Shown: piece by piece, positions 13,872 to 22,441 of the stretch | Layout: each line of letters starts with the position of its first letter | Numbering within the stretch: the stretch's first letter is position 1 | Assembly: GCA_017465565.1 (NCBI GenBank) | Contig: JAFTWA010000022.1 | Span: 1-64,000, forward strand | Origin: Tyzzerella sp. | Lineage (GTDB): Bacteria > Bacillota > Clostridia > Lachnospirales > Lachnospiraceae | DNA: 64,000 nt | Reading direction: 5' to 3' | The notes under the pieces: generated by a model | Told to the model about the DNA's origin: nothing | Database searches by the model: none | What the model saw: only the letters and a program-made list of their open reading frames with translations | Made by a program: the position numbers and the translations under genes

Positions 13872-14877
13872 AAAAAAAGGGGCTGTTGCAAAATAAAGAA
13901 AACAAAAATCATAATATGAGGTTTTGGCCACCACATTGCGTGGTGGTTTTTTTGTGCAATCGCAAGGAATTATGTGCCGATTTTCCATATGCAATATTTT
14001 TGACGTTCCACGGATGAAAAAATCCTGTTTTTTGCAGATTTTTGCAGGATTTTATGTGAATTTTTCTTTATAGGGAATAACTGTGCTGATATGCTAAGAG
14101 TTCTGTCAAAAGTGTTAGCACTGCAAGAAAGTTTTTTCGTATATGGAAATTGCCACACAAAATATGAAACACCCATCTTCTGCGAAAATACATCTGCAGT
14201 CTTTTGATGATTTTCTTACAGCCTCGTGAGACAAAAAGTCGGTTGTACAAAGCACGTTCAAACAGTCACGAATTTCCAAATGAAATGAGTGTTCAAGGTC
14301 TAGGCTACAGATTCTGGAAAAGTCTACGTGGCTGCGTTCAGTGATGTGATTAAGGAAGTGCTCCAAGAACTTACTTCGTGCGGACAACTTTCCGCACTCC
14401 CTCATTTACTGAACTGCAGCCACTAGACTTTGCACAGAATCTTTCGATGCCCTTTCGCGCCCATTTCATTTGGAAATTCTGGCTGTGCGTTTGCTTTGAG
14501 CAACTGTAATAGAACTCTTGTCTCACAGGCTGTTAGAAAATCCAAAAGACGAAGCCGTATTTCTGCAGAAGATGGGTGTTTCATATTTTGCGTGGCGATT
14601 TTCCATATACGAAAAAACTTTCTTGCAGTACTAACACTTTTGACAGAACACTTAGCATATAAGCACAAGTATTTCCTATGAGGAAAAATTTACATAAAAT
14701 CCTGCAAAAATCGGCAAAAAACAGGATTTTTTCATCCGCGGAGCGCCAAAAATATTGCATATGGAAAATCGGCACATAATTCCTTGCGATTGCACAAAAA
14801 AACCACTACACAATGTGGTGGCCAAAACCTCATATTATGATTTTTGTTTTCTTTATTTTGCAACAGCCCCTTTTTTT
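13872..14877. mobile_element. 1-kb near-perfect palindromic (fold-back) element, no transposase
   Basis: The left arm reads A7-GGGGCTGTTGCAAAATAAAG inward and the right arm is its reverse complement. The outer 57 bases (13872-13928 versus 14877-14821) are identical, the next 60 differ at two sites, and similarity fades inward but can be followed almost to the centre near 14375, where a GTGCGGA/TCCGCAC hairpin sits (14378-14397). The ends resemble insertion-sequence terminal repeats (GGxxCTGTTGCAAA-type). No transposase or other credible gene is inside. No direct target duplication is obvious: the flanks are A-runs and T-runs. Confidence 0.85.
13928..13953 (+). terminator. Terminator within the palindrome left arm
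   Basis: CCACCAC-ATTGC-GTGGTGG stem followed by seven T. It would end transcription from the surface protein gene. The mirror copy in the right arm (around 14796-14821) acts on the minus strand and has one mismatch. Confidence 0.75.
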
Positions 14878-14927: not shown

Positions 14928-14956
14928 TTGACGCGCGTCAAATAAAAATGTATACT
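14928..14956 (+). promoter_or_regulatory. Promoter of the HipA-like module with overlapping 14-bp palindrome
   Basis: TTGACG (14928-14933), a 17-base spacer and TATACT (14951-14956). The -35 box is the left half of a perfect palindrome TTGACGCGCGTCAA (14928-14941), so a dimeric repressor bound there would block polymerase. The HTH protein encoded second in the operon is the natural candidate. Confidence 0.65.
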
Positions 14957-14993
14957 TATTGTGAGAAAGATAATTGCTTAGGAGGAGATAGGG

Positions 14994-15815
14994 ATGAACA
15001 GGAAAGTAATTGTTGAAAAGCAGGATCTCACTTATCTCAAGTGGTCCCATGCAAGAAATTCAAGTGGTACAGCAGGTACATTTTTAAAATCCCAGTCGAT
15101 AATATCCGGAGAAAAAATATATTATAAATTATCTAATTTTGACAGTGAAAAGGGAATTATCGGTCATGAATGTGTAAATGAAATTATTGTTGATCGTTTG
15201 CTTACGATTTTAGGAGTAGAACACTTGGAGTATCGACTTATTCACGCAGATATCGAGATAGATGGCAAAGTCCATGATACATGGCTATGCGAATCAAAGG
15301 ATTTTAAGCAAAAAGGTGAAACAAAATCAGCTTTGGATAGCTATTATCAGATTAATAGAGAGCCGAATGAATCTCGATATGAGTTTTGTATAAAAAATGG
15401 ATGGCAAAAGTACATTGATACTATGCTGGCAGTAGATTATTTGATATTAAATAGAGATCGCCATGGTGCAAATATAGAGGTGCTGCGAAATGGACGAAAA
15501 CATATGATGAGGATTGCGCCTTTGTTTGATCATGGATTATCTTTTCTATGTTCTTGTTATAGTGATGAAGAGATAGAAAGGTTTGATATATTAGCGGATA
15601 AACCGTGCCAAAACTTTATTGGCAGTCGGTCTACATTTGAAAACTTAAATTTAATTACGGAGAAAAATACGATTTTCCAGTCAAAACTAAAATTGCAAGA
15701 TAAAGAAAAATTATTTAAAGATTTATCGTTTGTATTATCAGAAGTACATCGGGATAAGATATGGGATATGCTTTGGGCAAGGTGGTGTCAATATGAAAAG
15801 TTATGCAATTTATGA
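14994..15815 (+). CDS. HipA-like Ser/Thr kinase, short form
   Basis: A 273-residue protein carrying the kinase core of the HipA/HipT family: a Gly/Ser-rich nucleotide loop (NSSGTAGTFLK, about residues 22-32), the catalytic loop NRDRHGAN near 156-163 with catalytic Asp and Asn, and a metal-binding LFDHG motif near 180. Full HipA proteins have about 440 residues; the N-terminal subdomain is absent here and seems to lie in the next gene, as in HipBST systems where it is a separate protein. Such kinases phosphorylate translation factors or tRNA synthetases; the target here is unknown. GGAGGAG precedes the ATG. Overlaps the next gene by 23 bases. Confidence 0.82.
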   Translation: MNRKVIVEKQDLTYLKWSHARNSSGTAGTFLKSQSIISGEKIYYKLSNFDSEKGIIGHECVNEIIVDRLLTILGVEHLEYRLIHADIEIDGKVHDTWLCESKDFKQKGETKSALDSYYQINREPNESRYEFCIKNGWQKYIDTMLAVDYLILNRDRHGANIEVLRNGRKHMMRIAPLFDHGLSFLCSCYSDEEIERFDILADKPCQNFIGSRSTFENLNLITEKNTIFQSKLKLQDKEKLFKDLSFVLSEVHRDKIWDMLWARWCQYEKLCNL

Positions 15816-16608
15816 TGAAGAATTAGATGAAACATTTGCAATTGGCTATTTGTTCTATTATGAAAAATCGAAAAGTTTTGTGATAGAATTGAGTGCAGAT
15901 TTAGACGAATGGGATGCTCCCTTGTTATTTCAGAGATTGGTAAGAGAAAAAAAATATACTGTTCCACGAGATATTAGTTTACTGTGGGTGAAAGAAAGAG
16001 TGATTCCAAGCGGCAGGCAAAATATTGGAAGTATTCTTAAAAATCACAAGTTGAAAGATTATAGTGAAATGGCACTTCTTAGTTTGTCAAAGGGAAGATG
16101 TTCTCAAGACAACTGCTACATCACAGAAATATCGGAGGAGAAAATCCCGGAGAATATTAAAGATAGAATGAAGAAGAATTTATGGGAATGTTTTCCGACA
16201 GAAGATAATCAGATTGTATGTTTGTTTAAAGATGATATTGTAAAAAAAGTGGAGATTTCGCTGCTTCTTGAACAGTACAAAGATATTTTATATGTCTTAA
16301 AGAATAGAACGTTGCTTGATAGTGTGAAAGTAGGGGCTGGCGGATACAGTATTATCTTTAATGATTCTATTGAAATTCAAACTTCGGATTTGAGAAGAAT
16401 TGGGCAGACACTTCCACTAACTTCGAAAGATTTTTATAATTTTGTACGCAGAAATGTATTGGATACAACGAAAACTTGTGATATGCTTCAGTGTTCAAGA
16501 CAGAATTTATCCTATCTAGTTAAGGAGAAGAAAATCAAGCCGATTATTTATGGTACAAAAGAAAACCTATATTTAAAAGGTGAAATTGAAAAAACTTTAA
16601 ACGATTAA
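15793..16608 (+). CDS. Candidate antitoxin/regulator: HipA-N-like + DUF2442-like + HTH
   Basis: A 271-residue protein that starts at the ATG 15793 (AAGGTGG site) inside the end of the kinase gene. Three parts can be made out by eye. Residues 1-115 have the pattern of the HipA N-terminal subdomain (a vIPsgRqNi stretch near 72, then YSEMALL and a SKGRCSQD loop). Residues about 125-195 follow the DUF2442 pattern (VKVGAGGYSIIFNDSIEI). The C-terminal 60 residues form a helix-turn-helix (TTKTCDMLQCSRQNLSYLV). It probably neutralises the kinase and binds the palindrome upstream. The domain calls rest on pattern resemblance only. Confidence 0.6.
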   Translation: MKSYAIYDEELDETFAIGYLFYYEKSKSFVIELSADLDEWDAPLLFQRLVREKKYTVPRDISLLWVKERVIPSGRQNIGSILKNHKLKDYSEMALLSLSKGRCSQDNCYITEISEEKIPENIKDRMKKNLWECFPTEDNQIVCLFKDDIVKKVEISLLLEQYKDILYVLKNRTLLDSVKVGAGGYSIIFNDSIEIQTSDLRRIGQTLPLTSKDFYNFVRRNVLDTTKTCDMLQCSRQNLSYLVKEKKIKPIIYGTKENLYLKGEIEKTLND

Positions 16609-21366: not shown

Positions 21367-21576
21367 ATGGATACAGCACAGATAATTAAGGAAATGAGAG
21401 AACGGACAGGAATGAATCGTAAAGAGTTTTCGGAATATACGAAAATCCCGATAAGAACCTTGGAAGACTGGGAGGCGGGAAGAAGAACACCGCCAGAGTA
21501 TGTTCCGAGGTTATTAAACTATCAGCTACTGTATGATAAGTGGATAAAAGAGAAGGAGGTAAAAGAAGATGAGTGA
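21367..21576 (+). CDS. XRE-family HTH protein
   Basis: A 69-residue protein that is almost wholly a lambda-repressor-like HTH (MRERTGMNRKEFSEYTKIPI then TLEDWEAGRRTPPEYV). The start is the ATG at 21367 after GGGGAGAGG; upstream in-frame starts lie in the promoter. It overlaps the Bro-N gene by 8 bases. It is probably a repressor of this small phage-like cassette. Confidence 0.85.
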   Translation: MDTAQIIKEMRERTGMNRKEFSEYTKIPIRTLEDWEAGRRTPPEYVPRLLNYQLLYDKWIKEKEVKEDE

Positions 21577-22441
21577 CAAGATTCAATTATTTGAAGAGCA
21601 ACCGATTCGCACAGCGTGGGATGAAGAGAAAGAAGAGTGGTACTTTTCTGTAGTGGATGTTGTGGGTGTATTGACAGATCAAGAGACACCAAGAGGAGCA
21701 ACTAATTATTGGGCCAAGTTGAAAGAAAGGTTAAAAGAAGAAGGCGCAAATCAGTTGCTGACAAATTGTCAGCAACTGAAATTAAAATCGCCAAAGGATG
21801 GAAAAAGATATAAAACCGATGTTGCGGATACCGAGCAATTACTTCGTATCATTCAATCCATTCCATCGAAAAAAGCAGAGCCTTTCAAGATGTGGTTGGC
21901 ACAAGTCGGGCGCGAAAGAATAGAAGAAACTATTGATCCAGAATTGACAATCGACCGTGCACTAGATACATATCTGAAGAAAGGGTATGGTGAGGATTGG
22001 ATTCATCAGAGATTATTGTCTATCCGTGTAAGAAATGAACTAACAACAGAATGGAAGCAACGAGGAATTAAGAGTGGGAATGAATTTGCCATCTTAACTG
22101 ATGAAATCAGTCGTGCATGGTCGGGAATGACAACCAGAGAATATAAAGATTTGAAAGGACTAAAAAAGGAAAATCTTCGAGATAATATGAGCACGACAGA
22201 AATTATATTGAATATGCTTGCTGAAACTGCGACAAAGGATATTTCTGCGAGAACGAAACCAGAAACATTTACAGAGAGTAGAAAAGTGGCAAAACGAGGT
22301 GGAAGTATTGCAGGGAATGCAAGGAGAGAACTGGAAGAGGAACTGGGAGAACCTGTTATAACCTCAAAGAATGCCACGCAATTAAATACAATTGTTACCG
22401 AATTGATAGAGGCAAGGGCGGAAGAAGGTGAATTAAGTTGA
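21569..22441 (+). CDS. Bro-N domain antirepressor-like protein
   Basis: A 290-residue protein with an N-terminal Bro-N domain (residues 10-115: EEWYFSVVDVVGVLTD, then NYWAKLK) as in phage antirepressors and baculovirus BRO proteins, and a helical C-terminal part with DinD-like character (GGSIAGNARRELEEELGEP). Such proteins bind DNA or repressors. The AAGGAGG site lies inside the XRE gene. No other phage structural gene is present, so this is a stand-alone cassette or remnant. Confidence 0.87.
   Translation: MSDKIQLFEEQPIRTAWDEEKEEWYFSVVDVVGVLTDQETPRGATNYWAKLKERLKEEGANQLLTNCQQLKLKSPKDGKRYKTDVADTEQLLRIIQSIPSKKAEPFKMWLAQVGRERIEETIDPELTIDRALDTYLKKGYGEDWIHQRLLSIRVRNELTTEWKQRGIKSGNEFAILTDEISRAWSGMTTREYKDLKGLKKENLRDNMSTTEIILNMLAETATKDISARTKPETFTESRKVAKRGGSIAGNARRELEEELGEPVITSKNATQLNTIVTELIEARAEEGELS

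Follow-up and report, generated by a model that had tools for sequence, protein, structure and literature searches.

A HipA-type kinase gene pair in a Tyzzerella genome whose proposed antitoxin combines HipS-like, DUF2442 and HTH domains in one chain

Modules built around kinases of the HipA superfamily differ in gene number, gene order and the placement of their regulatory domains. In the two-gene modules HipBA, hipAB and hipEB, N-subdomain-1 is part of the kinase, whilst HipBST consists of three genes with the regulator first (PMC9325769). The kinase-first modules hipEB, hipIN, hipJS and hipMP have been described by Gerdes et al. 2021 (PMC8262856); that paper also describes short kinases with downstream HipS-like partners and, in hipIN, a HipS-like domain fused to another domain (HipS-HIRAN). 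HipS has been reported to neutralise HipT by inserting Trp65, which is conserved in some but not all HipS, at the Gly-rich loop (PMC10627512), or alternatively through a shifted P-loop to which ATP cannot bind (PMC9325769). DUF2442 is known as the antitoxin domain of DhiTA of Dickeya dadantii, which is encoded by a toxin-first, autorepressed operon (PMC8198452). In the accessible text of the literature that mentions HipA and DUF2442 together, DUF2442 is paired with DUF4160.

The locus compared here with these systems belongs to a genome of Tyzzerella sp. (Lachnospiraceae; GCA_017465565.1) of 3.22 Mb and 88.6% completeness. The window, the whole stretch of 64,000 nucleotides that was analysed, is part of contig 37 of this genome, and its features are listed in Table 1. 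Position 14928, where the preliminary description had the locus begin, is the first base of both the -35 box and the palindrome. The partner ORF as listed opens at a TTG at 15730; the ATG at 15793 aligns with the starts of relatives, has AGGTGG ahead of it and yields a protein of 271 aa and a 23-nt overlap with the kinase gene. The two genes overlap in 36/37 three-part loci (two of the 37 being duplicates), mostly by 14, 23 or 26 nt, which suggests translational coupling of the partner to the kinase. In five pairwise comparisons per gene, dN/dS was 0.062-0.112 for the kinase and 0.085-0.116 for the partner, values that are rough since dS exceeds 1 in most; purifying selection apparently acts on both genes. 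The fold of the short leader RNA is unremarkable (z -0.92) and no terminator was found 3' of the pair. At this locus the nearest named relatives come from metagenome assemblies of Lachnospiraceae, which derive, where titled, from the rectum and caecum of goat and the rectum of water deer.

Table 1. Coordinates of the proposed features of the kinase-partner locus in the window.
Feature	Position	Strand	Description and basis
Promoter TTGACG-17 nt-TATACT	14928..14956	+	-35 box within perfect palindrome TTGACGCGCGTCAA (14928-14941), proposed operator
Kinase-gene ribosome-binding site AGGAGG	14980..14985	+	Sequence
Kinase gene	14994..15815	+	273 aa; HipA-type protein kinase consisting of the core domain, without N-subdomain-1
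Partner-gene ribosome-binding site AGGTGG	15780..15785	+	Sequence; inside the end of the kinase gene
Partner gene	15793..16608	+	271 aa, three-part, proposed antitoxin/autorepressor
HipS-like domain	15793..16140	+	Partner residues 1-116; profile comparisons with relatives
DUF2442 domain	16159..16419	+	Partner residues 123-209; Pfam PF10387 via family members
HTH_17/MerR-type DNA-binding domain	16420..16605	+	Partner residues 210-271; Pfam PF12728 via members

The first gene had been read as a short HipA-type kinase without the N-terminal subdomain, and this is borne out by sequence profiles, catalytic residues and the position of the Gly-rich stretch. The stretch, SSGTAG, lies at residues 23-28 and N-subdomain-1 is therefore absent, as it is from the short kinase families HipG, HipM, HipI and HipJ (PMC8262856). 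E59, E63, D148, N153, D155, R156, H157, N160 and D179 are invariant in 35/35 aligned kinases, and K45 is present in 31 of the 35, including the window protein. The HipA-type motifs are thus present in the window kinase, namely the catalytic NxDRHxxN, the aspartate of the metal site and K45, the ATP lysine. Compared directly with Pfam, the protein gives weak matches only, to PI3_PI4_kinase and to HipA_C (14.7 bits, cut-off 30.5), and 22/35 aligned kinases match HipA_C at E<=0.01 (best 5.9e-8). An NCBIfam search of both window proteins gave no match. Among solved structures, the profile of the 35 kinases is closest to CtkA (1.8e-12) and also matches HipT of Legionella (7.4e-4).

The second gene had been described as uniting the missing subdomain, a DUF2442-like domain and an HTH in one chain, a composition that sequence profiles uphold, least directly for the HipS-like part. 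The window proteins are sub-threshold in Pfam, and domain calls were made via the sequences of relatives. With a profile of residues 1-116, matches were found in stand-alone proteins (111-130 aa) encoded directly after a same-clade kinase (L020, L021, L085 and L087-L090, the kinase at L087 being without its start), in the region ahead of the kinase core in the single-chain HipA-type kinases L091-L093 (2e-6 to 2e-5 within a small set of ORFs), and in the Couple_hipA part of the HipS-HIRAN protein L097. The profile also matches the C-terminal part of proteins encoded ahead of a short kinase, which bear an N-terminal HTH of the HTH_7 (L094-L096) or HTH_3 (L104, L078 and L082) type and are 189-218 aa long in L094-L096 and L104. 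In hhalign comparisons, all with small sets, the HipS-like part scored 98% against L113 and L102 (L113 itself being over the Couple_hipA cut-off), 97.5% against the N-terminal parts of L091-L093 and, for the HipN-like parts of L097 and L077, 93.8% (E 1.7e-7). As controls, the segments for DUF2442 and the HTH gave less than 1% against all seven sets. The values were 0.7% against the HipS set L105-L109, of which L105 is close to solved HipS (2.2e-19 for Legionella, 9e-10 for E. coli), and 0.3% against the HipA N-terminal parts L111 and L114-L116, and none of the 33 partners matched Pfam Couple_hipA at E<=0.1. In view of these negative comparisons the part is called HipS-like, not HipS, and its link to proven HipS runs through HipN-like intermediates.

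Trp65 of the solved E. coli HipS corresponds to the W in P-E-G-W; the matching partner loop, as placed by the hhalign alignment, is P72-x-x-R75-Q76-N77, in which R75, Q76 and N77 occur in 33/33 partners and no Trp is found at the Trp65 position. With P-x-x-R-Q-N in place of P-E-G-W, contact with the kinase therefore probably differs, and the partner is predicted to dock at the HipS place with a different plug. Residue 65 of the partner is aromatic (W in 29/33, F in 4/33) and might conceivably act as another plug.

The preliminary description had proposed searching the partner for Couple_hipA and DUF2442, and only the latter was recovered: DUF2442 (PF10387) is matched by 15/33 partners at E<=0.1 (best 4.3e-9), and relatives with the DUF2442 segment exceed the Pfam cut-off. 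The HTH, which had been thought HipB-like, proved to be of the HTH_17/MerR/excisionase type and not a HipB-type XRE domain. HTH_17 (PF12728) is matched by 25/33 partners at E<=0.1 (best 7.2e-10), L019 being over the cut-off, whilst the window partner's own copy gives only a sub-threshold HTH_17 match. The DUF2442-HTH half weakly matches NE0471 (PDB 2auw; profile residues 136-250, E 0.019), which aligns with DUF2442 and the start of the HTH but has no match to the HipS-like part. DUF4160 genes adjoin the single-domain relatives L024 and L027. There are also shorter relatives: L098 (2545-3162) combines a HipS-like part with HTH_17 and a weak remnant of DUF2442, and L103 (2491-3156), which has no Pfam match, is matched by the HipS-like profile and weakly by that of the HTH and has a perfect TTGAC-N4-GTCAA upstream; no kinase of this clade was found in the stretches of L098 and L103 examined.

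Among the described modules, hipIN resembles the pair in being kinase-first, in its short kinase without N-subdomain-1 and in a partner whose N-terminal HipS-like domain is followed by a nucleic-acid-binding domain, but the partner here has DUF2442-HTH where hipIN has HIRAN, which is matched by 0/33 partners at E<=0.1 (Pfam). The module hipIN was equated with the PADLOC candidate PDC-M03 because the L097 partner matches Couple_hipA (2.1e-7), HIRAN (2.6e-13) and PDC-M03B (3.3e-104); no mention of PDC-M03 was found in the open-licence literature (preprints not included). In hipJS a kinase is likewise followed by a HipS-like protein, which is the layout of the sister loci L020, L085 and L088-L090, whereas the window partner has two further domains and a proposed operator lies upstream of the pair. 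The kinase, HipS-like and HTH functions of HipBST are all present here, but in two genes with the kinase first, with the HipS-like part and an HTH of another type in one chain and with no Trp at the Trp65 place. With HipBA, hipAB and hipEB the locus shares a two-gene kinase module with an HTH partner, kinase-first in hipAB and hipEB; it differs in that N-subdomain-1 lies in the partner and not in the kinase, and from HipBA in having no XRE-type HipB partner. DhiTA shares the toxin-first operon, the DUF2442 antitoxin and autorepression, but its toxin is DUF4160 instead of a kinase, and its antitoxin is tabulated as DUF2442 only (PMC8198452). In HipAD/DS-6 a HipA-family kinase is likewise accompanied by a partner of several domains, for which binding to both kinase and DNA has been proposed (PMC13092281), although the domains of that partner, DUF3037 and DUF1829, match 0/33 partners here.

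The claims of novelty fare unevenly against this background. Reversed gene order, which had been held distinctive, is not so in view of the kinase-first modules already published (PMC8262856). The claim of a distinct fused antitoxin stands in part: no description of HipS-DUF2442-HTH in one chain was found in the accessible text of the open-licence literature (no preprints; a weak absence), but HipS-like fusions as such are known from hipIN. No such module in Lachnospiraceae was found in the same literature.

The co-occurrence of the candidate operator with the HTH is the best indication of what the HTH does. In the window the palindrome overlaps the -35 box, and TTGAC-N4-GTCAA (<=1 mismatch) lies <=130 nt upstream of the kinase in 36/37 three-part loci, against 0.11 expected by shuffling. 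With duplicate sequences (L005/L036 and L008/L034) removed, the site is found in 34 of 35 distinct HTH-bearing loci, 25 times in perfect form; the exception, L062, has a perfect site, but 169 nt upstream. The same search found it in 0/6 loci whose partner is without the HTH (HipS-like only), an association (Fisher 1.6e-6) uncorrected for relatedness. The candidate operator thus appears both conserved and tied to the HTH. Excluded from the count were same-place loci (L001, L010, L033, L035, L037, L038, L039, L064, L065 and L099), loci whose kinase is truncated (L011, L041 and L087) and loci without one (L057 and L086), among which L011 and L041 have the site and L057, L086 and L087 do not. No loci from L117-L145 were taken in; by eye, L117 has the site.

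A -10 box (<=1 mismatch) follows the -35 hexamer of the site by 15-18 nt in 29/35 loci (L006 and L062 not scored; two duplicate pairs included), and a second site (<=2 mismatches) is present in 20 loci, in 15 of them 39-44 nt further down. The operator centre is CATATG in L017-L019, L040 and L043 and CGTATG in L012, and elsewhere CGCGCG and variants. The assembled own genome contains a single copy of TTGACGNNCGTCAA (reversed control, 0) and two copies of the looser TTGAC-N4-GTCAA, a number at chance level given four for the reversed control. Allowing two mismatches, two sites were found in the window versus 2.14 expected, which is not significant. Rarity is therefore no argument by itself, and the operator carries weight through its position and conservation. 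The only other TTGAC-N4-GTCAA in the own genome, TTGACATATGTCAA (G000:C32:32180-32193), has the form of the second operator group.

The kinase and its partner are closely linked. Some partner match is present in 90/397 family genomes, most of those beyond the three-part and HipS-like cases covering the DUF2442 segment only. A three-part partner is found in 30/397, beside a kinase in 28 of them; of the 30 partners, 28 are near full-length in one piece, one (G448) is in two pieces in one frame and one (G471) runs across a stop. The HipS-like part alone occurs in 6/397 (G352, G430, G575, G581, G585 and G661; ORFs checked). Conversely, the kinase profile detected 33 same-clade kinases in the 397 genomes at E<1e-50, with up to six candidates per genome scored, and comparison of coordinates placed all 33 next to a partner, 28 of them three-part and five HipS-like only. 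The profile match starts at position 8 or earlier in 32/33; that of G575 starts at 29, and this kinase may be incomplete.

By contrast with the 0/33 kinases that stand alone, 3/36 partners have no kinase or a remnant of one. In G636 the partner is intact and is preceded by an operator-like site (one mismatch) and the final 36 codons of the kinase gene. G471 has neither kinase nor site, and its partner is interrupted by a stop; G585 has a HipS-like partner with no kinase beside it. In the same-genus genome G008, kinase residues 1-146 are missing while a perfect site and the partner are kept. Loss of the kinase with the partner kept would be the direction expected of a toxin, although the numbers are small. 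In a tree with a very long outgroup branch, the HipS-only clade falls within the three-part ones, so that HipS-only partners may have arisen by loss from three-part ones.

Among the genomes drawn, the module is rarer outside the family. A full partner was found in two genomes of another family (G266 and G305) in a draw of 291 class genomes, and strong kinase matches among 299 phylum genomes came only from G086, which belongs to the same family, and from the own genome. Plasmid records gave two matches, one weak (29%) and the other on plasmid pNP95 of Pseudobutyrivibrio xylanivorans MA3014, which carries a 69%-identical kinase with the palindrome upstream and a partner frame interrupted near its start. 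Phage records gave one weak match (25% identity), and the kinase was found in 0/8 candidate stretches of viral contigs.

A scan of 10 neighbouring ORFs identified a MATE transporter pair, a two-component system, repeat-bearing probable surface proteins and a LuxR-type regulator. In an empty-site comparison, the regulator downstream of the pair gave no full-length match in the nine other genomes from the genus. A near-palindrome of ~1 kb (window 13872-14877) immediately precedes the kinase promoter, with outer arms of 278 nt that are 95% complementary; one half of it has 56 own-genome matches (itself and the other arm included), several of them in inverted pairs, as in a dispersed repeat family. 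About 5 kb downstream of the pair, at window 21569-22441, is a gene for a protein with a Bro-N domain, a type of domain common in phages. The own genome also holds a second HipA-type module on contig 60 (L082 549-1908) in the other order, in which a 268-aa kinase is preceded by a protein of 182 aa that has HTH_3 and, at its C-terminus, a HipS-like part (profile match 6e-4). Elsewhere, L029 (976-3174) comprises a kinase fragment, a 143-aa HipS-like protein, an AAA_21/AAA_15 ATPase gene (by Pfam, putatively AbiEii-type) and a further gene, and is possibly a defence context.

Taken together, it is quite probable that the pair forms a type II toxin-antitoxin module of the HipA kinase superfamily. 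What can be read from the sequences themselves is the gene pair with its profile domains and catalytic residues, purifying selection on both genes, an operator whose presence follows that of the HTH, and a few kinase losses with the partner kept; to these we add toxicity, neutralisation, target and trigger by inference. The bare kinase core, once freed from the partner, would phosphorylate an essential host protein and stop growth, perhaps a tRNA synthetase if HipA and HipT are a guide to its target. By analogy with HipS, the HipS-like domain would fill the place of the kinase's missing N-subdomain-1 by the Gly-rich loop and keep the kinase off. The DUF2442-HTH half would bind the palindrome over the -35 box, an operator identified by comparison, and repress the operon. 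It would probably act as a dimer, perhaps more effectively with the kinase bound, and would tie the kinase complex to the operator, as DhiA represses dhiTA (PMC8198452). The overlap of the genes would couple translation of the partner to that of the kinase.

A possible, if less than probable, reading is that the pair serves in anti-phage defence as sensor and effector, a phage product (possibly sensed by the DUF2442 part) freeing the kinase to cause abortive infection. The kinase matches the PADLOC candidate model PDC-M03A (1.9e-8) and the N-terminal part of the window partner gives a weak direct match to PDC-M03B (3e-3), although PDC-M03 has no more than candidate status. Phage protection is provided by DS-6/HipAD, in which a HipA-family kinase is paired with a different two-domain partner, and a catalytic-residue change abolishes it (PMC13092281); in L029 the HipS-like gene is followed by the ATPase gene, whereas no known defence gene was found among the 10 neighbouring ORFs scanned in the window. 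Defence would in any case be compatible with, not opposed to, a toxin-antitoxin module.

It is unlikely that the kinase is no toxin and instead a CtkA-like housekeeping or signalling kinase with a regulatory subunit, the HTH half giving signal-responsive control of the operon. Such a role agrees with CtkA as the closest solved structure by profile, with a window pair that, from what can be seen of the contig, lies on the chromosome, and with dN/dS of about 0.1; it sits poorly with the patchy occurrence (30/397 family genomes), the plasmid copy on pNP95, the candidate operator over the pair's own promoter and the few kinase losses with the partner kept. About as unlikely, or slightly more so, is a two-input antitoxin derived from two unrelated toxin-antitoxin systems, with the HipS part inhibiting the kinase and the DhiA-like DUF2442-HTH half as sensor for a second ligand, be it the kinase's state, a phage protein or a DUF4160 toxin, which it relays to operator and kinase; if so, a signal through DUF2442 would release the kinase, and the locus would be a cross-wired toxin-antitoxin hub and not a simple fusion. 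That DUF2442 is the main restraint on the kinase, as DhiA is on the DUF4160 toxin (PMC8198452), with residues 1-116 as a scaffold, is very improbable, given seven loci in which a same-clade kinase is followed by residues 1-116 alone (L020, L021, L085 and L087-L090) and flanking window ORFs that do not match DUF4160.

As a toxin-antitoxin module, the pair would achieve with one partner what HipBST divides between two, since HipBST needs separate HipS and HipB for kinase and promoter and here one chain appears to do both. There are also matched natural controls, in the form of sister loci with only the HipS-like part and no such operator, HTH and HipS-like fusions encoded ahead of the kinase, and single-chain kinases. 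The restraint of HipA-type kinases, and the contribution of DUF2442 to it, are therefore directly testable with Lachnospiraceae genes.
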